Below are positions 17,216 through 61,350 of a DNA stretch of 64,000 bases, piece after piece. This DNA is from Clostridium sp. KNHs205 (lineage in GTDB: Bacteria > Bacillota > Clostridia > Lachnospirales > Lachnospiraceae). Position 1 is the first letter of the stretch. Each line of letters begins with the position of its first letter. The notes beneath the pieces are model-generated. The model did no database searches. It saw nothing but the letters and a program-made list of their open reading frames with translations, and was not told the origin of the DNA. The stretch covers positions 3,643,501 to 3,707,500 of the forward strand of contig NZ_JNLE01000003.1 in NCBI RefSeq assembly GCF_000702945.1, given 5' to 3'. The translations under genes and the position numbers were made by a program.

Positions 17216-17309
17216 GTGTGTCAAGTCACACAGTCAGGCATTAGTTGAAAAAGATAAGGCGATTTTTTCAACTACGTATTCAGTAATATCAAATTCAAGA
17301 TTTGATATT
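17216..17309 (+). promoter_or_regulatory. Three-hairpin leader before a D,D-carboxypeptidase gene
   Basis: Successive stems: GTGTG/CACAC (17216-17231), AGTTGAAAAA/TTTTTTCAACT (17243-17273) and a perfect 10-bp AATATCAAAT/ATTTGATATT with loop TCAAG (17285-17309), followed by CACGAAAGGAG and the ATG at 17326. The last two stems and the flanks recur before the VanXY-like gene at 38481 on the other strand. Confidence 0.65.
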
Positions 17310-17325
17310 CACGAAAGGAGTTAGT

Positions 17326-18678
17326 ATGAAACTTTTCTTTAATTTATCCCCTGGAGCTGGTAAAAGGTCCAAATTATATACAAGGCTCATTTGCTTTGTA
17401 TTGATTACTGTACTTCTCTTCTCTTATGGGCAGGGATTAAATACTTATGCAGAGACCTCACAGGATACGCAAAAGAGTCAGGAGGCACAGAATAATCAGG
17501 ATACAGAAAATAATCAGGAACAGAAAAGTGATCAAAACACACAGAATAACCAGAATACAAGTAATCAGAATGCCGCGGCAACGGCAGATGCAGCCGCTCT
17601 TGATATTTCCTCTGAATCTGCAGTTCTTATCGAAGGCTCAACTGGAACAATCATTTATGAGAAGAACAAAGATCAAAAAAGAAATCCGGCCAGTATCACT
17701 AAGATAATGACCTTACTGCTTATATTCGAAGCATTGGCATCTGGTAAGATTAAATTAGAGGACCAGGTTTCCGTCAGTGAATATGCAGCCTCAATGGGGG
17801 GATCTCAGGTTTATCTGGAACCATTTGAAACCCAGGACGTAAACACGATGATAAAATGCATCAGTATAGCCAGTGCCAATGATGCTTCGGTAGCAATGGC
17901 AGAGTACATAGCAGGCTCGGAAGAATCCTTTGTAAATATGATGAATGCCAAAGCAAAGGAACTTGGTATGAACAATACCAACTTTGTTAACAGCTGCGGT
18001 CTGGATGTCGATAATCATTATTCTACTGCCTATGATGTTGCCTTAATGTCCAGAGAATTGATAACCAAATATCCGCAAATCAGTGAGTATTCTACAGTCT
18101 GGATGGATACCATAACTCATACCACTAAAAAAGGTCAGAGCGAGTTCGGACTTACCAATACAAATAAACTGATTAAGAGTTATAATGGAATCACAGGCCT
18201 TAAAACCGGTTCTACCAGTCTGGCCAAGTACTGTTTTTCAGCAACTGCCAAAAGAGATGGAATGGATATGATAGCAGTAGTAATGGCTGCACCGGAAACA
18301 AAGGTGCGTTTTAGAGAAGCGGCTAAGATGATGGATTATGGCTTCGCGAACTGCAGTATTTATTCCGATGAGAATACGGATCTGGCTGTCACACCCATAC
18401 CTGTTAAAAAAGGTGTGGCAGACACTTTGAATTACCGCGTAAATGATAAGTTTTCATATCTGTGTCTGAAAGGAACAAATCCTGCCGAAATCACGAAAAC
18501 AGTAACTATAAATGAAAGTGTTTCAGCACCTGTTAAAGAGAATGACAAAGTGGGAGAGGTTACGTATCAGTTGGATGGCAAGACCCTTGGAAAAGTTGAT
18601 ATCGTAGCAGCTGAAAACATTGCTGAAGCAAAATTTAAAGATTATTTTAAAGCTGCTTTTAAGAAATTATTACTATAA
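17326..18678 (+). CDS. dacF: D-alanyl-D-alanine carboxypeptidase (DacF/PBP5 type)
   Basis: 450 residues from ATG 17326 (AAAGGAG 5 bp upstream; the in-frame ATG at 17302 lies inside the leader hairpin). Signal peptide, then a Gln/Asn-rich low-complexity spacer (about 42-90). The S11 peptidase domain follows, with the Ser123-x-x-Lys126 pair in NPASITKIM, Ser183-Ala-Asn185 and the Lys293-Thr-Gly motif. A PBP5 C-terminal domain and a short amphipathic end follow. It trims the terminal D-Ala of peptidoglycan peptides outside the membrane. The dacF label is by similarity; a sporulation role is not proven. Confidence 0.9.
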   Translation: MKLFFNLSPGAGKRSKLYTRLICFVLITVLLFSYGQGLNTYAETSQDTQKSQEAQNNQDTENNQEQKSDQNTQNNQNTSNQNAAATADAAALDISSESAVLIEGSTGTIIYEKNKDQKRNPASITKIMTLLLIFEALASGKIKLEDQVSVSEYAASMGGSQVYLEPFETQDVNTMIKCISIASANDASVAMAEYIAGSEESFVNMMNAKAKELGMNNTNFVNSCGLDVDNHYSTAYDVALMSRELITKYPQISEYSTVWMDTITHTTKKGQSEFGLTNTNKLIKSYNGITGLKTGSTSLAKYCFSATAKRDGMDMIAVVMAAPETKVRFREAAKMMDYGFANCSIYSDENTDLAVTPIPVKKGVADTLNYRVNDKFSYLCLKGTNPAEITKTVTINESVSAPVKENDKVGEVTYQLDGKTLGKVDIVAAENIAEAKFKDYFKAAFKKLLL

Positions 18679-36500: not shown

Positions 36501-37772
36501 CGGAAGAAAAGCAGCGTAATTACTGAAAGTTATAATTATGGATACCAGAAAAAGCCCTTTACCAAAGAAAACCGCAAAGCTCATACCATTCTTGCACCTC
36601 AAATGGCACCAATTCATTTTGAATTGATCAGAGAAGCCGCCCATGCCTCCGGATACCGGATGGAGGTACTTCCGGATAAAGACAATGGAGCCATAGAAGA
36701 AGGACTTCGTTATGTGAATAATGACGCCTGCTATCCGGCAGTGCTCATAATCGGTCAGATAGTCGGAGCATTAAAATCAGGTAAATATGACCTTGATAAC
36801 ACCTCAGTCATAGTCAGTCAGACAGGTGGAGGCTGCAGGGCTACGAATTATATGTCCTTCTTAAAGCTTGGATTAAGACAGGCAGGTTTTGAAAAGGTAC
36901 CTATCATTTCCTTAAACGTAGCCGGTTTGGATGAACAGCCTGGATTCCACCTTTCACCGGTATTTGTGAAAAGAATGATGATGGCAGTAATCTACGGTGA
37001 TTTGTTTATGAGACTGCTTTATGGCACCCGGCCATATGAAATAGATAAAGGAGCTTCGCAGACTGTCTTTGAATTATGGAAAGAAAGAGTTAAGATAAAT
37101 GTCAGAAACAGGAGTAAACTTCAATTTGATCAGAATGTAACTGACATTGTGAAAGCCTTTGAAGCAATTCCGGTAACAGATGCCCGCAAGCCAAAGGTTG
37201 CCATAGTGGGAGAAATACTTGCAAAATATCACCCAATGGCCAACGATGATATTATTAAGACCCTGGAGGAGGGTGGAGCAGAAGTGGTGCTTCCGGATTT
37301 CCTGGACTTCTTTTTCTATTCCCTCTATAATTCCAAATTCAAACACCGTTATCTCAGCGGCAAGAAAACCACGATGAATGCCTGTAGTCTTGGAATTCAA
37401 TATATATCCTATTACCGCAAGACTATTGTAAAAGAACTGAAAAAAAGCAGCCGTTTCCTGCCGCCGTCCTCCATTCAGGAGTTAGCAGGAAAGGCTGAGG
37501 AGTTTCTCTCCCTTGGTAACCAGACAGGGGAAGGGTGGCTGATAACCGCAGAGATGATACACAACCTGGAAAATGGAGTGCCCAATATTCTCTGTGTCCA
37601 GCCCCTTGCCTGCCTGCCAAACCATATTACCGGGAGAGGCATGTTTAAGGTATTAAAAGAGAAGTATCCGTCGGCAAATATTATGCCTATCGATTATGAT
37701 CCCGGAATTTCACAGGTCAATCAGATTAACAGGGTTAAATTATTACTTTCCGTTGCTTTGCAAACAGATTAA
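33540..37772 (+). CDS. Giant 2-hydroxyacyl-CoA dehydratase activase-like protein (BadF/BcrA + DUF2229)
   Basis: 1410 residues. There are two ASKHA ATPase domains of the BadF/BcrA type (about 10-260, GLDIGSTTIK and Cys128 in NSCAGGTGSF; about 325-590, GIDAGSTTLK and Cys449 in EACSSGCGSF). The Cys residues are the usual ligands of the bridging [4Fe-4S] cluster. A cysteine cluster C610-x2-C613-x3-C617 follows, then a DUF2229 region and a C-terminal HgdB/BcrC-like region. Small activases inject electrons into radical dehydratases; these large multidomain versions are widespread in Clostridia and their substrate is not established. No dehydratase gene is adjacent. Confidence 0.88.
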   Translation: MNRISDYYRIGLDIGSTTIKIAVLDEENRILYKEYKRHLSDLKNTIQSVVSLCRTHMGDIPCKVIITGSGGLSMSRWLSLPFEQEVIACTKAVKTYLPQTDTVIELGGEDAKVTYLKPVTEQRMNNSCAGGTGSFIDQMAALFHTDAAGLNEYAAKAHTIYPIASRCGVFAKTDIQPLLNDGARKEDIAASIFQAVVNQTTTGLSWGKPIKGKIAFLGGPLYFLSELRKRFIETLNPEEVFLPADGLFFPAIGGALLLKEKKFETEEIINLKDLEERLQALKQSKETNTLAPLFTSSEDYEKFLKRHEKCDCKRMPLAEYTGNVYLGIDAGSTTLKAVLIGNGGELLNDYYTKSAGDPVIKTAALLKEIYDQLPLDVTISGGCVTGYGEELIKRAFHLDMSEIETIAHLRGARHFEPKADFILDIGGQDMKCLRLKDGRVDNILLNEACSSGCGSFLESFAQSLNLSISEFASLGLYSKEPVDLGTKCTVFMNSKVKQAQKEGAEVSDLSAGLSYSVIKNALYKVIKLRDEKELGKHIVVQGGTFLNDSVLRCFEAVTGREVLRPKIAGLMGAYGAALLARDTYQAGHRSTLIGKEQLTDFRIQTDNTRCRHCSNNCLLTINHLGQDQVYITGNRCEKGLGKINGTKDRIPNLYAYKYKKLFAYKPLSKESAVRGTLGIPRALNMYESYPFWFTLLSFLGFRVVLSSPSSKEIYQKGMDSIPADSVCYPAKLTHGHIIDLVEKGIDTIFYPSVVYEKKEYEDADNCFNCPIVISYGEVLKNNIEAAKGVTFISPFLNMNDDNQLAKNMYEVLKEEYQIPLKEVKEAVMRGRKEFEAFKEDIRRKGEEAVAYLLKNGKQGIVLCGKPYHVDPEIHHGIPEMIESYGLGVLTEDSISHLVPLRSKLRVVDQWAFNSRLYRAAEALGQIEGLEFVQLNSFGCGLDSVTADQLIEILNSMGKQYTLIKIDEGANLGAARIRIRSLIAASEERKKSSVITESYNYGYQKKPFTKENRKAHTILAPQMAPIHFELIREAAHASGYRMEVLPDKDNGAIEEGLRYVNNDACYPAVLIIGQIVGALKSGKYDLDNTSVIVSQTGGGCRATNYMSFLKLGLRQAGFEKVPIISLNVAGLDEQPGFHLSPVFVKRMMMAVIYGDLFMRLLYGTRPYEIDKGASQTVFELWKERVKINVRNRSKLQFDQNVTDIVKAFEAIPVTDARKPKVAIVGEILAKYHPMANDDIIKTLEEGGAEVVLPDFLDFFFYSLYNSKFKHRYLSGKKTTMNACSLGIQYISYYRKTIVKELKKSSRFLPPSSIQELAGKAEEFLSLGNQTGEGWLITAEMIHNLENGVPNILCVQPLACLPNHITGRGMFKVLKEKYPSANIMPIDYDPGISQVNQINRVKLLLSVALQTD

Positions 37773-38481
37773 GGCTGACTCTTTTTTTTAGAGTCATTAT
37801 AAAGCCGTCAATGTTGTTTCCGCTAACGGTAAAAGGGATATTATCCGGCATTTCTACAACTGTAGATTCATTTGTATCTGCTTTTACTTTGTAGATTTCA
37901 TAGAGATTGTCTTTATCCCGATAGCTTAAAGTCTTATTATTAGAGGAATAATCTTCGATTACTTTCAGATATTCTTCCATGGTAATATCCAGCTCCTCCA
38001 TGATAATTGAATGGGGGTAGCCTACATAACGAAAGTGGCCGGGTTGGTATTCTACACCTGTAACATCCTCTTTGGCTTTCGGATAGCGTTCAATAAATCC
38101 ATGTTTTGAGGCAATATTTCGAAACTCCTTGCAGACTCCTTTCTTTGGAAAACCGGACATCATCGAGGTCTTATTAATAATATTTGCAGACAAGTCAACA
38201 GCAAGACCTGTACTGTGTTCACTATCCTTAATTGGATGAACGGATGCGGTGTTTTCATAACCTTTAACCGGTATGATATCATTGCCGCATTCTAATTCTG
38301 TTAAAAGGTGGGAGAGTTCTTTTGCAGCTACATAATCTAACAGTATATTCTGATTCCAGAAATCGATTCCAACCAGTGCAGTGTCATTGGCTGCATATTT
38401 TTCTTCTATAGGATGCTCCTCATTTACAAGAATGAGATTTCCTTTATGTATATTCTTATTCTCCAGTTTAATTTTCTTCAT
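37735..38481 (-). CDS. VanXY-like M15B peptidase with altered active site
   Basis: 248 residues without signal peptide. Its length plan and motifs fit the VanXY/VanY group: VKGYENTASV, the zinc motif SEHSTGLAVDLS (S-x-H-x3-G-x-A-x-D) and FIERYPKAKEDVTGVEYQPG followed by HFRYVGYPHS. In active members the last motif is EPWHFRYVG; here the catalytic Glu is Gln and the Trp is Gly. A C-terminal extension of about 55 residues is unassigned. It could act on D-Ala-D-Ala substrates in the cytoplasm or be a non-catalytic binder. Its 3' end overlaps the activase-like gene by 38 bp, convergently. Confidence 0.78.
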   Translation of the reverse strand: MKKIKLENKNIHKGNLILVNEEHPIEEKYAANDTALVGIDFWNQNILLDYVAAKELSHLLTELECGNDIIPVKGYENTASVHPIKDSEHSTGLAVDLSANIINKTSMMSGFPKKGVCKEFRNIASKHGFIERYPKAKEDVTGVEYQPGHFRYVGYPHSIIMEELDITMEEYLKVIEDYSSNNKTLSYRDKDNLYEIYKVKADTNESTVVEMPDNIPFTVSGNNIDGFIMTLKKRVSLNLFAKQRKVII

Positions 38482-38499
38482 AATATAACCTCTTTCGCG

Positions 38500-38563
38500 A
38501 ATATGAAATCTTCGATTTGATATTCCTGAATCAGTAGTTGAAAACAGTTCCTTGCTCTCAAAC
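38500..38563 (-). promoter_or_regulatory. Hairpin leader of the VanXY-like gene, homologous to the dacF leader
   Basis: On the minus strand AATATCAAAT-CGAAG-ATTTCATATT (38524-38500) is followed by CGCGAAAGAGG and the ATG at 38481. Just upstream, TTTTCAACTACTGATTCAGG matches TTTTCAACTACGTATTCAGT in the dacF leader. An imperfect stem precedes it, as in dacF. Confidence 0.6.
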
Positions 38564-39332
38564 TAACTATCATTTCGCACTTTAACACATCACACAAATA
38601 CAGTAGTTGCTTACTTCTAATACACTGGTTCTCATTACATGCTGCATCTGCTTGCAGATGTGGTACTGACACAAATCAGGGTTTTTAATTATCCTTTCAA
38701 TAATTTACATTACTCCATCTGTGCTATAATGCTCACATATAAATATAAAACAAATATAGATATGAATGGAATACAGACAGTGATAACTAATATGTAAGAT
38801 AGCCCTATATTTATTTTTGCATATATAAATTGAATGTCAGCTTCTCTGCTTCCTAATAAAAAGAAATAAACCTAATACATCTTAATTTACTCAAGCAAGG
38901 ATAAAGCTCCATACAACTTATGCTCCTATTATAGCAGATGGATATGCCCACGTGTTTTAAAGAGCTCTTATGAAACCTTAAGATTCTCTTATGAAATTAT
39001 TAGGTATACCTTGAATTATGTTTTTGGTGCAATTATATGGATTAAAATGGTATATACACGGCATATAATCATGGTCAAATATAATAACTTAGCATATTTT
39101 TAAATGATAGAAAGATAATAACCCTATATTTAATAGTATCATCCTTTTTAATGCTATTATTGGTCTTTTATTAAAAAGGTATCAATGAAGTATAACTGTT
39201 ACTTCTGTGGTATAAAAAGTTTTAGCTTAAGAATATGAGTATATCCTCTTTGAAATGTGACCATTTATGTGATCATTTCTTAACTCACCATGCATTTCTT
39301 AGATGCAGTTATATAAAACAGAAATTAATTAA
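38564..39332. other. Long AT-rich intergenic stretch without recognised genes
   Basis: About 770 bp. A short stem CATCTGC/GCAGATG lies at about 38645-38660 and a weak dyad near 39256-39281. No protein-coding frame with a ribosome site and family similarity, and no tRNA, was seen. Confidence 0.5.
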
Positions 39333-48908: not shown

Positions 48909-49139
48909 TTGACTTTGCCGCTGAATTTGTTATAGTTTATTTATATGTAAAGTATTTTAGACATAACGGCATTTGTTTGAAACATTAGAAAAGCTAAAGC
49001 CAGATATACAACAGGTTTGTAATCCGGTATTATTAGTAAAGCAAAAGCCGGATTTAAAATTGGATGTTAACAAAAGCAGATAGATGGAAATAGAATAATT
49101 TCCACTTCTGATTTGAGTGCGCAAAGGTGCGATTGGAGG
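48909..49139 (+). promoter_or_regulatory. Promoter and structured leader of the GH43 gene
   Basis: TTGACT (48909-48914), 16-bp spacer, TATAGT (48931-48936). The roughly 200-nt leader holds stems AATCCGG/CCGGATT (about 49020-49055), TGGAAAT/ATTTCCA (about 49085-49104) and a fourth copy of the hairpin element, AGTGCGCAAAGGTGCG (49116-49131), running into the Shine-Dalgarno TTGGAGG. Confidence 0.55.
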
Positions 49140-51031: not shown

Positions 51032-52885
51032 GTGTGCCCGCCATGGGCGGGCTCTTAAGGGTGCAAGTCCCTAGCACACCCAGATAGTGGGAAGTGTATA
51101 GTTGAACAGCAAGGGTGTAAACCGTGAGGTTTAATCTGAAAGAAGCTGTAGACAAACCTCTGGTCTGACGAACAGAAATCGCATAAAAGGCTGGGTTCCG
51201 AGAGATAAGCTTGCAAAATGAAGCAAAGTCTAATAACTATCACATTTGTAGGAACAAAGTAAATGCGGCAGATATATGGAGGGAAAGAGTTCGTACCTTA
51301 CGCGGGGAGGTCTCACAGCGGTTTCATCAGCCGAGTAACAACGAACTGTGAGAAGTCAGCATAGCCCATAGTAGTGAAGAAGTCTCTGTAATGGGGATGG
51401 AGCGAAGGGGTGAACAATTAATCAGTTGAAGTAGGTTCCGACTTGTAGCCAAAAGCAACATCTGTCGATAACGTCAAAGATGGCAGAGGCAAACGGGACA
51501 GAAAGGAAACAACGCATGGACACAAGTAGTCTAATGGAGCAGATATTAAGCAAAGATAATCTTAATACAGCATATCTGCAAGTCGTACGAAACAAAGGTG
51601 CCGCAGGAGTAGACGGAATGGAGTATACAGAACTGGGTGAGTACCTTTCGCAGAACGGCGAAATCATCAAGGAGCAGTTGCGGACGAGAAAATATAAACC
51701 GCAACCAGTAAGACGTGTGGAGATACCAAAACCAGAAGGAGGAGTCAGAAACCTAGGTGTACCAACGGTAACAGACAGATTTGTCCAGCAGGCAGTAACA
51801 CAGGTGCTCACTCCAATCTTTGAGAAACACTTTCACGACCACAGCTATGGTTTCAGACCCAATCGGTGTGCACAGCAAGCAGTCCTGACAGCATTAGAAA
51901 TGATGAATGAGGGACACAGCTGGATTGTCGATATTGACCTTGAAAAGTTCTTTGACACAGTAAATCATGACAAGCTGATGACGATTATCGGAAGAACAAT
52001 TGAGGATGGAGACGTTATTTCTATCATTCGAAAATTCTTAGTCAGCGGAGTCATGATTGATGATGAGTATGAGGACTCCATTATTGGAACACCACAAGGA
52101 GGAAATATATCACCGCTGTTGGCAAATATCATGCTTAATGAACTGGATAAGGAAATGGAACAAAGAAGTCTGGATTTTGTAAGATACGCTGATGATTGTA
52201 TTATCATGGTCGGAAGTGAACTGGCAGCAAACCGAGTAATGAAAAGCATTTCAAAATTTATAGAAAAAATACTTGGATTAAAAGTAAATGTCAGCAAGAG
52301 CAAGGTGGATAAGCCGAAAGGTATCAAGTATCTTGGATTTGGATTTTATTATGACTCATTTGCCAAGCAATATAAAGCCAAACCACACGCAAAGTCAGTA
52401 GCGAAGTTCAAGGCAAGAATGAAGCAGTTAACTTGTCGAAGTTGGGGAGTCGGTAACGATTATAAAGTGAAGAAACTGAATCAGCTTATTCGAGGATGGA
52501 TAAACTATTTCAAAATCGGGAGCATGAAGAAACTGTGTGGAATACTGGATAAGAGTATGAGATTTCGACTTCGTATGTGTATCTGGAAACACTGGAAAAC
52601 CCCACAGAACAGAGCGAAGAACCTTATTAAGCTCGGTATTAGTCGCGCATGGGCATTCTCAACAGCATACACAGGTGCTAGAATTGCGTTTGTATGTCAG
52701 AGAGGTGCAATGAATGTAGCGATAACAAAAGAGAGACTAACCCGATTTGGATTAGTCTCAATGTTAGATTACTATTCTGAAAAGTGTACTTGTTAAGTTG
52801 ATTGAACCGCCGCTTGCGGAACCGCATGAGCGGTGGTGTGAGAGGTCGAAAATTTCTCAACTAGAGAAATTTTCTCCTACTCGAT
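51032..52885 (+). mobile_element. Group II (IIC-type) intron
   Basis: The 5' end GTGTGCCCGCCATGGGCGGG fits the GUGYG consensus. About 480 nt of structured RNA precede the reverse-transcriptase gene. After it comes a domain V-like hairpin: GAACCGCCGCTTGCGG, then ACCGCATGAGCGGTGGTGTG, AGAGGTCG and an A-rich stem, ending CTCCTACTCGAT near 52885. Insertion right behind a terminator stem-loop, and a maturase without an endonuclease domain, are hallmarks of subgroup IIC. Exact ends are accurate to a few bases. Confidence 0.9.
51516..52796 (+). CDS. ltrA: Group II intron reverse transcriptase/maturase
   Basis: 426 residues from ATG 51516 (AGGAAAC upstream; the frame opens at 51480). Reverse-transcriptase blocks are intact: NKGAAGVDGMEY, GFRPNRCAQQAVLTAL, VDIDLEKFFDTVNHDKLM, GTPQGGNISPLLANIMLNEL and the catalytic FVRYADDCIIM. 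The maturase domain X follows (LIRGWINYFKIGSMKKL, LRMCIWKHWKTPQNRAKNL). No HNH endonuclease domain is present. The protein splices the intron RNA and copies it at new sites; the frame is undamaged, so the element may be active. Confidence 0.95.
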   Translation: MDTSSLMEQILSKDNLNTAYLQVVRNKGAAGVDGMEYTELGEYLSQNGEIIKEQLRTRKYKPQPVRRVEIPKPEGGVRNLGVPTVTDRFVQQAVTQVLTPIFEKHFHDHSYGFRPNRCAQQAVLTALEMMNEGHSWIVDIDLEKFFDTVNHDKLMTIIGRTIEDGDVISIIRKFLVSGVMIDDEYEDSIIGTPQGGNISPLLANIMLNELDKEMEQRSLDFVRYADDCIIMVGSELAANRVMKSISKFIEKILGLKVNVSKSKVDKPKGIKYLGFGFYYDSFAKQYKAKPHAKSVAKFKARMKQLTCRSWGVGNDYKVKKLNQLIRGWINYFKIGSMKKLCGILDKSMRFRLRMCIWKHWKTPQNRAKNLIKLGISRAWAFSTAYTGARIAFVCQRGAMNVAITKERLTRFGLVSMLDYYSEKCTC

Positions 52886-53532: not shown

Positions 53533-53633
53533 TAGCAGCGGGATGCGAATTTCGTACCGCAAGTTTTACCTTTTCGTCCACCGGACAACTCCCCGTTCCG
53601 ATGACACTTAACGCACGAAATCCTACTCTGCTA
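53533..53633 (-). promoter_or_regulatory. THF (tetrahydrofolate) riboswitch
   Basis: Read on the minus strand: AGCAGAGTAGGATTTCGTGC, GTTAAGTG, CGGGGAGTTG, GGACGAAAAGG and a closing CGCATCCCGCTGCT, matching the THF riboswitch core (AGAGUAG, GCGUUAAGUG, GGGA, GACGAAAAG, CGC-UCCGCU). The promoter TTGCCT-17 bp-TATAGT lies at 53684-53656. Downstream, TGCTACAT/ATGTAGCA followed by AAGTTTTT forms a likely terminator whose left arm overlaps the 3' side of the aptamer's closing stem. Confidence 0.92.
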
Positions 53634-54449: not shown

Positions 54450-54796
54450 ATTCATTTTCATTCAATGTTCCATTTTACCAGTGTTTAAAATAGATTGTAT
54501 TTTTACAAGTCATAGTCTATAATGGTTTGTAAGCTATAAACAGCACATTGATTCACATAATTATATTATGTAAACCAATGTGTTTTTCTAAGAAAAGAGT
54601 GAATGAAAATTTATTATTGAAAGGCTGCCATACTAAAATTCTTTCGCTCTTATTATTTATGGCAGTGTTGCTGGTATATCGGCGATATGCAGTAGGTGTA
54701 AGGTTGAAATATAATTTCAAACCGCATATTTGTGCCTGCGAAATCCCCAGCACAAATTCTGATGCACAAAATGCATGTAAAGGAATGGAGAATAAA

Positions 54797-56680
54797 ATGA
54801 AAAAACTGGCTTTATCAGATGAAATTCTAATGACCATAGACAAGCCTGCCAGATACATCGGCAATGAAACGAATATGGTCATAAAAGATACAAATGCAGT
54901 TGATATCAGATTCTGTATGTGTTTTCCCGATGTATATGAAATTGGAATGTCTCACTTGGGAATACAGATTCTATACGATATGTTTAACCGCAGGGAAGAT
55001 ACTTATTGCGAAAGAGTATACTCACCCTGGCCCGATCTGGACAAGATAATGAGAGAGAAGAAGATCCCTCTGTTTGCCTTGGAATCACAGGAGCCCATAA
55101 AGAAATTTGATTTTCTGGGTATAACTCTTCAATATGAAATGTGTTATACCAATGTTCTGCAGATTCTGGATCTGTCCGGTATACCTTTGCTGGCAAAAGA
55201 CAGAACCGAAGAGGATCCTTTTGTATTAGGCGGAGGCCCCTGCACTTATAATCCGGAGCCTCTAGCGGATTTCTTTGATTTCTTTTATATCGGTGAGGGT
55301 GAGACTGTTTATGACCAGCTCTTAGACCTTTACAAGGAGCACAAGCAACAGGGAGGAAGCCGTAAGGAGTACCTGGAGAAGGTTGCACAAATTGACGGAA
55401 TCTATGTCCCCTCCTTGTATGATGTAACTTACAAGGAAGACGGGACCATTGAAAGCTTTCGGAAAAATAATGACCATGCAAAAGATAAGATCAAAAAGCA
55501 GGTCGAAATGAAACTCGAGAACACCTATTATCCCAAGAAACCTTTGGTTCCCTATATCAGAGCTACCCAGGACAGGGTGGTACTGGAGATCCAAAGAGGT
55601 TGTATCAGAGGCTGCCGTTTCTGCCAGGCCGGTATGGTGTATCGTCCGGTTAGAGAACGAAGTATGGACTTCTTAAAAGAGTATGCAACGGAAATGCTCA
55701 AAGCTACCGGTCATGAAGAGATTTCCTTAAGTTCCTTAAGCTCCAGCGACTTTTCAGGCTTACAGGAACTGGTATATTTCCTGATTGAAGAATGTGGTAA
55801 ACAGAAAGTTAACATATCCTTGCCTTCTCTTCGTATTGATGCCTTTGCTTTGGATGTTATGAGCAAAGTCCAGGATGTTAAGAAAAGCTCTCTGACCTTT
55901 GCTCCGGAAGCCGGTTCCCAGAGACTTAGAGATGTTATCAATAAAGGACTTACAGAAGAAACCATACTAAATGGTGCAATGGAAGCCTTTAAAGGTGGCT
56001 GGAACAGAGTAAAGTTGTATTTTATGCTTGGCCTGCCCACGGAAAATGAAGAGGATATTGAAGGAATTGCTATTCTTTCCGATAAGATTGCAAGAGAATA
56101 CTACACCCTTCCAAAGGATCAGAGAAACGGAAAGATTGGCATTACTGCCAGTACTTCTTTCTTTGTGCCAAAACCCTTTACTCCCTTTCAGTGGTCAAGA
56201 ATGGATACTGCAAAGGAATACTTAAACAAACAGCATTTCCTCCGTTCCAAGTTCAATGAACAATTAAACAAGAAAAGTATCAAATATAATTGGCATGAAG
56301 CAGAATTAAGCGTTTTAGAAGGTGTATTTGCCAGAGGTGACAGAAGGGTCGGACAGGCTTTACTGGCAGCTTATAAGGAAGGCTGTCTCTTTGATTCCTG
56401 GTCAGAATTCTATGACAACGATAAATGGGAAAAAGCCATTGCTGCTACTGGTATTGACATAGATTTCTATACCTGCAGGGAAAGAGAAATAGATGAAATA
56501 CTGCCCTGGGATTTTATTGATGCCGGTATTACAAAGGCATTCCTCGCCAGAGAGTACAAACAGGCGAAAGAAGCAAAGCTTACTCCCAACTGTAAAATGG
56601 CTTGTTCCGCTTGCGGAGCTACAGTATTTGGCGGCGGTATCTGCTTTGAAACAAGAGAGCAGGAGGTAAGTGCAGAATGA
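54797..56680 (+). CDS. B12-binding radical SAM protein (TIGR03960)
   Basis: 627 residues from ATG 54797 (GGAG 7 bp upstream). The frame is open for 83 more codons upstream, but the family begins KLALSDEILMTIDKPARYIG, as here. A B12-binding-like N-terminal region (about 30-190; FPDVYEIGMSHLGIQILYDM) precedes the radical SAM core with the cluster motif GCIRGCRFCQAG (C-x3-C-x2-C) and LSSLSSSDFSGL. The C-terminus has a CxxC pair (ACSACG). The reaction is not established. The next gene overlaps by 4 bp, the usual TIGR03936 partner. Confidence 0.92.
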   Translation: MKKLALSDEILMTIDKPARYIGNETNMVIKDTNAVDIRFCMCFPDVYEIGMSHLGIQILYDMFNRREDTYCERVYSPWPDLDKIMREKKIPLFALESQEPIKKFDFLGITLQYEMCYTNVLQILDLSGIPLLAKDRTEEDPFVLGGGPCTYNPEPLADFFDFFYIGEGETVYDQLLDLYKEHKQQGGSRKEYLEKVAQIDGIYVPSLYDVTYKEDGTIESFRKNNDHAKDKIKKQVEMKLENTYYPKKPLVPYIRATQDRVVLEIQRGCIRGCRFCQAGMVYRPVRERSMDFLKEYATEMLKATGHEEISLSSLSSSDFSGLQELVYFLIEECGKQKVNISLPSLRIDAFALDVMSKVQDVKKSSLTFAPEAGSQRLRDVINKGLTEETILNGAMEAFKGGWNRVKLYFMLGLPTENEEDIEGIAILSDKIAREYYTLPKDQRNGKIGITASTSFFVPKPFTPFQWSRMDTAKEYLNKQHFLRSKFNEQLNKKSIKYNWHEAELSVLEGVFARGDRRVGQALLAAYKEGCLFDSWSEFYDNDKWEKAIAATGIDIDFYTCREREIDEILPWDFIDAGITKAFLAREYKQAKEAKLTPNCKMACSACGATVFGGGICFETREQEVSAE

Positions 56681-60991: not shown

Positions 60992-61009
60992 GTGTCAATA
61001 AAAAAGCAA

Positions 61010-61350
61010 ATACGTTGAGAAGGATTATTAACCATAGTATAATTACCAGAGACTTGTTGGAGGGTGCGAAACAAGAATTAGAGCATGGTGAACTCACCTT
61101 GGAGTAGCTGACTGAACGATTTAGTAGGTTAAGCCGGAAGCCCACCGTTAGAGGGGATAGATATAGAGCTTTATTGGTATCGATTATTAAGAGTGGTATA
61201 ACAGTTAACTTCTGTCTCTTTTTTGAGATAGAAGTTTTTTTATTTCTTAACCAATAAACCTGTATCAAATTGAGTGCATGCAGCTGCATGAATTAGAGTG
61301 GTACCGCGAAAGTCTCCCTTCGTCTCTGAAATGAGAAAGGGAGACTTTAT
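61010..61350 (+). promoter_or_regulatory. T-box leader, leucine-specific, upstream of leuS
   Basis: The conserved T-box AGAGTGGTACCGCG lies at 61295-61308 with the tRNA-end-pairing TGGT at 61299-61302. A terminator stem AGTCTCCCTT (61311-61320) / AAGGGAGACT (61337-61346) with a TTTATT tail follows. Stem I spans about 61013-61145; its loop has GAACTCA, giving the specifier CTC (Leu) at 61093-61095. Uncharged tRNA-Leu should open the terminator and allow leuS transcription. The leader also holds an extra terminator-like hairpin (61207-61241). Confidence 0.92.
61207..61241 (+). terminator. Extra intrinsic-terminator-like hairpin inside the T-box leader
   Basis: AACTTCTGTCTC (61207-61218) pairs with GAGATAGAAGTT (61225-61236) in a 12-bp stem with one G-U pair and a T6 loop, followed by TTTTTATTTCTT. 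It lies 50-90 nt before the T-box sequence. Confidence 0.75.

Follow-up and report, generated by a model that had tools for sequence, protein, structure and literature searches.

The window, that is, the whole stretch of 64,000 nt of DNA analysed here, contains two genes for D-Ala-D-Ala peptidases whose leaders each end in a copy of one repeated element, which we call family 1. The corresponding features, with the evidence for each, are as follows.

17242..17325, + strand: family 1 element, copy A (covariance model R1, 94.9 bits, match 17242-17328 including the ATG; blastn)
17242..17274, + strand: hairpin P1 of copy A, 17242-17253 pairing with 17263-17274 (fold; pairs covary in the structure-fitted alignment)
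17279..17315, + strand: hairpin P2 of copy A (sequence compared with the family structure; covariation)
17315..17320, + strand: element-borne Shine-Dalgarno sequence (SD) of copy A, AAGGAG (sequence; conserved among copies)
17326..18678, + strand: host gene of copy A, a D-Ala-D-Ala carboxypeptidase (Pfam Peptidase_S11 and PBP5_C)
38481..38564, - strand: family 1 element, copy B (model R1, 76.7 bits; blastn E 4.5e-12)
38499..38525, - strand: hairpin P2 of copy B, GAATATCAAATC / GATTTCATATTC, with one mismatch (sequence; fold)
37735..38481, - strand: host gene of copy B, with a VanY (D-Ala-D-Ala carboxypeptidase) domain (Pfam PF02557)

Copy A terminates at ATG 17326 of the carboxypeptidase gene, and its hairpin P2 consists of a core (17285-17294 with 17300-17309) and an outer helix (UUC 17279-17281 with GAA 17313-17315), with an internal loop between them. 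Copy B terminates at the start of the VanY-domain gene (VanXY), the model match taking in the first base of the ATG. The start codon marks the end of the element, and with it the end of the similarity between the two copies. A preliminary description of this DNA had pointed to a common, hairpin-bearing leader on these two genes, and both the sharing and the hairpins proved real. With 17216-17326 as the query, blastn against the own genome recovered the VanXY leader (85% identity over 59 nt, E = 4.5e-12), and the only strong matches of the family 1 model in the window were 17242-17328 (+) and 38481-38564 (-), copies of a single element of about 85 nt. Each leader folds into two hairpins that few dinucleotide shuffles equalled or bettered (3/200 and 2/200; z -2.65 and -2.60). 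As had also been observed, the second S11 carboxypeptidase gene (41088) is without a copy when model R1 is run over the window.

The same description proposed that a shared cis-acting RNA coordinates the two D-Ala-D-Ala enzymes, and two wall peptidase genes 21 kb apart do carry family 1, as do the orthologs of both in genomes G012 and G014. However, the element is a dispersed repeat. The window's own genome (G000, 6.36 Mb) yielded 32 blastn matches below 1e-6 to 17216-17326. Thirty of these loci were fetched; seven are inner units of tandem arrays and 23 directly precede a start codon (ORF of at least 33 aa). The 21 start-adjacent copies beyond the two wall genes stand before other genes, including tlyA-like (FtsJ/S4), rlmN-like, rbfA, pgsA-like, cheB, response regulator, PTS IIBC, flavin reductase, radical SAM activase, lipoprotein and HxlR-like regulator genes, seven of them named by Pfam domain and the others by eye from the sequence. 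There is no cell-wall theme among these host genes. Moreover, the second S11 carboxypeptidase lacks the element, the sets of genes that carry it are lineage-specific, and orthologs are without it at four clean empty sites described below, all of which makes a wall-specific leader coordinating D-Ala-D-Ala peptidases exceedingly improbable. There is no support for a common wall signal, and that two D-Ala-D-Ala enzymes both have the element is most plausibly a coincidence.

The distribution of family 1 is narrow and uneven. Among 31 genomes searched with the covariance model at E up to 1e-3, matches numbered 54 in G010, 41 in G012, 34 in the own genome, 19 in G014, five in G006, three in G008 and one each in G001 and G009, and there were none in seven other genomes of the same genus or in 16 of other genera; copy number within the genus thus runs from 0 to 54. 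A search of 397 genomes from 334 genera, with the own genus represented by three, matched the own genome alone, under stricter settings that recovered 11 own copies vs. 26 with looser filters, so that weak copies may escape it. Among named genome contigs, an exact family 1 pattern occurred only in one Anaerocolumna MAG, in a search from which own or very near records may be left out. From these matches we infer that the genus of the carriers is probably Anaerocolumna. No copies were found in viral contigs (exact patterns) or in plasmids or phages (blastn). The 113 proteins encoded downstream of the element comprise 50 that fall into 22 shared clusters and 63 that are single, and the G010 gene set is nearly disjoint, with 36 of 38 downstream proteins partnerless in the other genomes read. 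Thus the host genes are neither related in function nor conserved as a set across species, as the targets of a cis-regulatory leader of one pathway would be.

What the copies have in common is their place. We read 123 copies in eight genomes, 23 from the own genome and 100 from seven others, among the matches listed; this set leaves aside about 11 tandem neighbours, the five weakest matches listed, seven inner array units of the own genome and 12 own matches without a locus. An ORF start (at least 25 aa) lies at the expected place in 113 of the 123. With a threshold of at least 60 aa, 105 of the 123 end within a 22-nt window of an ORF start, compared with 19.5% of random places, and with ATG alone 103 do so vs. 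11.5%. The random places were drawn from the same loci, coding sequence included. The covariance model contains the ATG and so favours copies at starts, but the blastn matches show the same placement. The 18 copies that miss include six before ORFs of 33-47 aa, five that lead into another unit or element and two whose start seems to lie slightly farther on (by eye); the remaining five fit none of these descriptions. Four half-copies in G010, encountered in a search for an autonomous copy, consist of P1 or P2 only, and none were paired around a gene; they also end at an SD and start codon (before a short ORF in one case, judged by eye). P2 is flanked by TATTCA repeats, and a deletion between these could account for the P1-only copies.

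The anatomy of the element was read from an alignment of the 23 own-genome copies. SD-like purines and TTAGG are followed by the 5' end NTGAAAAA, hairpin P1 (GTTGAAAAA/TTTTTCAAC), the linker ACTACGnATTCAG, hairpin P2 (GAATATCAAATC/GATTTGATATTC) with its outer UUC/GAA helix, CGAAAGGAG(G), TTA and the start codon. P1 is A/U-rich, and the linker and the internal loop of P2 are conserved in sequence, the loop being AG/AC in most copies and AC/AG or AT/AG in a G010 subfamily. These G010 loop variants (L099, L103, L105 and others) mostly have a CCAATC/GATTGG stem. By inspection of the aligned copies, the 5' TTAGGTTGAAAA and the 3' GAAAGGAGTTA are not mutually inverted; the element lacks terminal inverted repeats, and its hairpins are internal.

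Covariation was weak in the first own-genome alignment of 18 copies (five pairs, a value reached by 22/500 shuffles). In a structure-fitted alignment of 99 model-aligned matches, 18 of 22 pairs showed changes on both sides (82 cells), with 90.7% of cells paired and no shuffle of 500 reaching this; the alignment covers seven genomes (G014 is not among them) and has 97 distinct rows, and among its rows are the model sequences, a pair of overlapping loci and two matches on the reverse strand. For P2, 36 G010 copies, none of them in the model, were also aligned with MAFFT without fitting to the structure; covariation appeared at 7 of 15 pairs (6/500 shuffles), and 26 cells were double-changed where shuffles averaged 9.1 (0/500 shuffles). 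The stems of family 1 are therefore maintained, with independent support for P2 and, for P1, support in the fitted alignment only. The preliminary description had reasoned that hits before unrelated genes and free of covariation would speak against a shared RNA element; matches do precede unrelated genes, but covariation is present nonetheless. Rfam gave no match at gathering score at the family 1 element, where unrelated matches fell far below gathering at E up to 10, and none in seven loci of families 1 to 3 at E up to 1. The notion that the hairpins free the SD was not supported, as predicted SD accessibility was slightly lower with the real leader (0.57) than with a shuffled one (0.62; 110 copies).

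It could be argued that the old SD instead serves a short upstream ORF (TTG AAA ...) whose translation is coupled to that of the gene, since the 5' end resembles an SD followed by NTG and AAA and the frame is open in some tandem units (by eye). However, the start-like NTGAAA lies at the expected distance in 71 of 113 copies, the lengths of these are evenly spread modulo 3 (25/23/23), and 41 contain an internal stop. With stops inside the element and no preferred frame, family 1 is non-coding, and we rejected the upstream ORF as very improbable.

Comparison of orthologous leaders revealed sites from which the element is missing. For tlyA, the close relatives G000, G012 and G014 share 91-97% identity, followed by G010 at 82%. 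The site is empty in G012 (...GATGGGAGTTAAA followed by GTG), filled in G000 (...GATGGGAGTCAGG-TTGAAAAAC...CACGAAAGGGGTTAAA followed by GTG) and filled in G014 too; G010 and G009 are without an element, and G002 has no family 1 but does have a family 2 copy (see below). The plsX gene is filled in G010 only and has a short leader in twelve other genomes, e.g., GCAGATGGGAGCTGACT followed by ATG. The gene at L166 is empty in G000 and G014 (ACAGATTGGAGTTATATG), and in G012 the same leader holds an additional 80 nt after GGAGTT, ending in GAGGTT before ATATG. Lastly, the gene at L150 is filled in G012 and empty in G000. These are the clean empty sites, four in the 21 genes compared (orthologs were fetched for 18 of the 21 joined genes, and these yielded two of the sites), and in each the insertion lies between the native SD region and the start codon. 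In the other genes the relative is filled too (e.g., L169/L253, L175/L254 and L037/L263), the leader is too diverged, there are larger indels, or another element is present. Presence at orthologous sites is thus polymorphic, with empty sites, as is characteristic of a mobile repeat. No clean target-site duplication was seen; at the empty sites GGAGTT is accompanied by GAGGTT or GGGGTTA, and this imperfect repetition may be part of the element itself.

Copies also adjoin one another. The rlmN gene has at least seven tandem units in G000, at least two in G014, a P2-only remnant in G012 and none in G010, and the joints of tandem arrays sit at an SD. At L108 (G010, 300-560), a nest of family 1, family 3 and family 1 again precedes a response-regulator-like gene, every joint being at an SD. 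In one gene the family 1 loop variant of G010 (L100) differs from that of G008 (L182), an indication that the same start received two independent insertions. Three genes named by eye, ribF-like (L101/L292), DUF188-like (L093/L307) and rdgB-like (L097/L290), have family 1 in one species and family 2 in another. The starts of these three seem to be targeted repeatedly.

In our judgement, what the two wall genes share is a non-coding mobile element with two hairpins, which targets translation starts and supplies the SD by which translation is restored (probability about 0.8). The element, about 85 nt long and dispersed in part of Anaerocolumna, would insert in sense orientation between the native SD and the start codon. 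An ordinary insert at that position would move the SD away from the start and so prevent translation; here, the SD at the 3' end of the element, at the right spacing, would replace the one that has been separated. Because the element ends in a new SD, the gene would stay translatable and the insertion would survive, so that the restored SD is probably the reason that insertion is tolerated. The terminal SD would itself be a target, hence the head-to-tail arrays and the nests with other families, and array joints at an SD are what is expected if the SD of each unit is the next target. The element is presumably moved by an enzyme acting in trans, and the insertion site is presumably recognised through the SD/start region. 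Mobile elements normally damage their targets. Family 1 seems to strike the few bases where a gene is most sensitive and to bring a replacement part along, and can consequently spread through the leaders of housekeeping genes.

Searches for Y1_Tnp and, in G010, for an autonomous copy revealed neither a mobilising enzyme for family 1 nor such a copy. IS200/IS605 elements have hairpins at their ends, generate no clear duplication and insert 3' of a short motif. Family 1, with hairpins near both ends, no clear duplication and insertion 3' of a short motif, could accordingly be a palindrome-associated derivative of this family, which a Y1 transposase would move in single-stranded form and insert after a GGAG-like target, and G014, with 19 copies, has Y1_Tnp matches above the cut-off, albeit in pieces. 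However, PF01797 (Y1_Tnp) had no match at E up to 1e-3 in G010 or G012, which hold 54 and 41 copies, so the transposase that a PATE derived from IS200/IS605 would require in the same genome was not seen in either. In G000 there was one match, below the cut-off and with stops, and the clear PF01797 matches were in G009 and G002, which are poor in copies. We therefore regard an IS200/IS605 derivative as improbable.

A different possibility is that the element was transposed and then kept as a cis control, with a protein, sRNA or metabolite binding P2 or its internal loop and controlling many genes. The sequence-conserved linker and internal loop would suit such a role, the location is appropriate for translational control, and when orthologous leaders are compared, pairing survives 25 of the 36 double changes in paired columns. 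On the other hand, among single changes between orthologs, 97 broke or restored pairing and 43 left it intact, some of the ortholog pairs may be independent insertions that mimic compensation, gene sets vary by lineage, some orthologs are without family 1, and the functions of the host genes are unrelated. We consider general control of this kind rather doubtful. In the DacA leader there is a T-A pair in G014 vs. T.C in G000, and in the VanXY leader a G-C pair in G014 vs. C.C in G000 and G012, which hints at selection on the stem after insertion, although gene conversion or independent insertion could produce the same picture. Regulation in some of the host genes is possible, judging from the leaders compared. 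What stands of the proposed shared cis RNA is thus a structured element with covarying stems, and what falls is its link to the cell wall, as the copies precede unrelated genes. A common leader is no proof of common regulation, and family 1 has the look of an uncommon kind of genomic parasite, one that remodels the front ends of genes, and not of a wall control switch.

The comparison of orthologous leaders also exposed other families at the place of family 1, among them family 2, a pseudoknotted leader repeat of about 116 nt. Further downstream in the window, three such inserts are present.

54591..54702, + strand: family 2 copy (covariance model R2, 102.5 bits; one of 11 copies in the model)
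54703..54796, + strand: further insert between the family 2 copy and ATG 54797 (sequence; family 4-like by eye)
49085..49131, + strand: family 3 copy, followed by an SD and ATG 49145 (nhmmer E 9.9e-14; sequence)

In a G011 gene that looks the same as that at 54797 (L317), the ATG comes directly after family 2. Model R2 (E up to 1e-3) matched all 15 Anaerocolumna genomes, with 28 to 149 matches in 13 of them: G011 149, G009 126, G008 116, G006 105, G012 95, the own genome 86, G005 75, G014 63, G002 and G001 60 each, G007 50, G010 30 and G013 28, followed by G003 with 4 and G004 with 2. As 150 candidates were scored per genome, the highest counts may be lower bounds. Family 2 is bigger than family 1. 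Its structure comprises a pseudoknot (a x b) and a hairpin (c). In a fitted alignment of 36 matches, three of them on the reverse strand, 96.2% of cells are paired and 16 of 25 pairs changed on both sides, which no shuffle reaches, and a MAFFT alignment of the 11 seeds showed covariation at 13 of 25 pairs. Of 26 copies read from these 36 matches, 24 end at an ORF start (at least 60 aa), the model including the ATG. The rlmN gene is preceded by family 2 in G001 and not in G002 or G013. Family 2 was absent from viral contigs (exact patterns) and from plasmids and phages (blastn), and it had no Rfam match in the loci tested. Farther up the VanXY leader, at 38650-38700 (-) of the window, a decayed family 2-like hairpin can be seen by eye; model R2 does not report it.

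Family 3 (L269, L268, L099 and L083) has a GTGTGGAAAT..ATTTCCAC hairpin, the linker TTCTGATTTG and a second hairpin, followed by an SD and ATG or by a further element. Leaders resembling a fourth family (L128 and L263 in G014; 54703-54796 in the window) show a TTGAAA..TTTCAA hairpin, a second structured part (CGCAAGTTTGTGCTTGCG.. in G014), an SD and ATG. There are at least two families beyond families 1 and 2 at the same place, sometimes nested. Tentatively, all might belong to a new mobile class, a start-site leader element, comprising several structured RNA families with a common insertion site (between SD and start), a common architecture (a start-like NTGAAA at the 5' end and an SD at the 3' end) and probably one mobiliser. 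Were this so, a single dedicated mobiliser would probably recognise translation initiation regions, perhaps through RNA or the ribosome, and the leaders of a large number of Anaerocolumna genes would have been rewritten by such elements. If one mobiliser does seek translation starts, its choice of target would, to our knowledge, be unlike those of the mobilisers known.

Several known systems share features with family 1. Bacterial MITEs and REP/PATE elements of the IS200/IS605 kind are non-autonomous, palindromic and moved in trans, and family 1 resembles them in these respects, its non-autonomy and movement in trans being presumed. It differs in that no Y1 domain was found in G010 or G012 and that its ends, by inspection, are not inverted repeats of each other as in a MITE. 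The closest described repeats found in our literature search, going by the portions of the source available, are BOX, RUP and SPRITE of Streptococcus pneumoniae, short interspersed structured repeats confined to one species group, with 125 BOX and 110 RUP copies in one pneumococcal genome (PMC3049150). BOX is built of tandem modules, the repeats are inserted within each other, and those portions link them clearly to gene function in few cases (PMC3049150); family 1 is likewise a short, dispersed, structured repeat with tandem units and mutual insertion. However, terminal inverted repeats, which family 1 lacks, are present in BOX and RUP, as are target duplications, and the same portions do not describe BOX, RUP or SPRITE as lying between an SD and a start codon or as carrying an SD (PMC3049150), so that it is by description that family 1 is set apart. 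The twintrons formed by group II introns of Thermosynechococcus are mobile structured RNAs that insert into one another and create new targets, moved with the aid of an intron-encoded protein, according to the sections available of that report (PMC2882425). Family 1 is similarly RNA-structured, inserts into its own kind and makes new targets; unlike these introns as described there, it is about 85 nt long and non-coding. Among open-licence papers, we found no report of repeats inserting between an SD and a start codon or of Anaerocolumna repeats. Family 1 is most plausibly a self-repairing mobile leader element and one among several families landing at the translation start; it would offer natural experiments on the evolution of leaders and SDs as well as new leader RNAs. 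Finally, the window has Rfam matches of other kinds, namely, pieces of a group II intron at 51118-51410 (+), a THF riboswitch at 53534-53632 (-) and a T-box leader at 61006-61330 (+).
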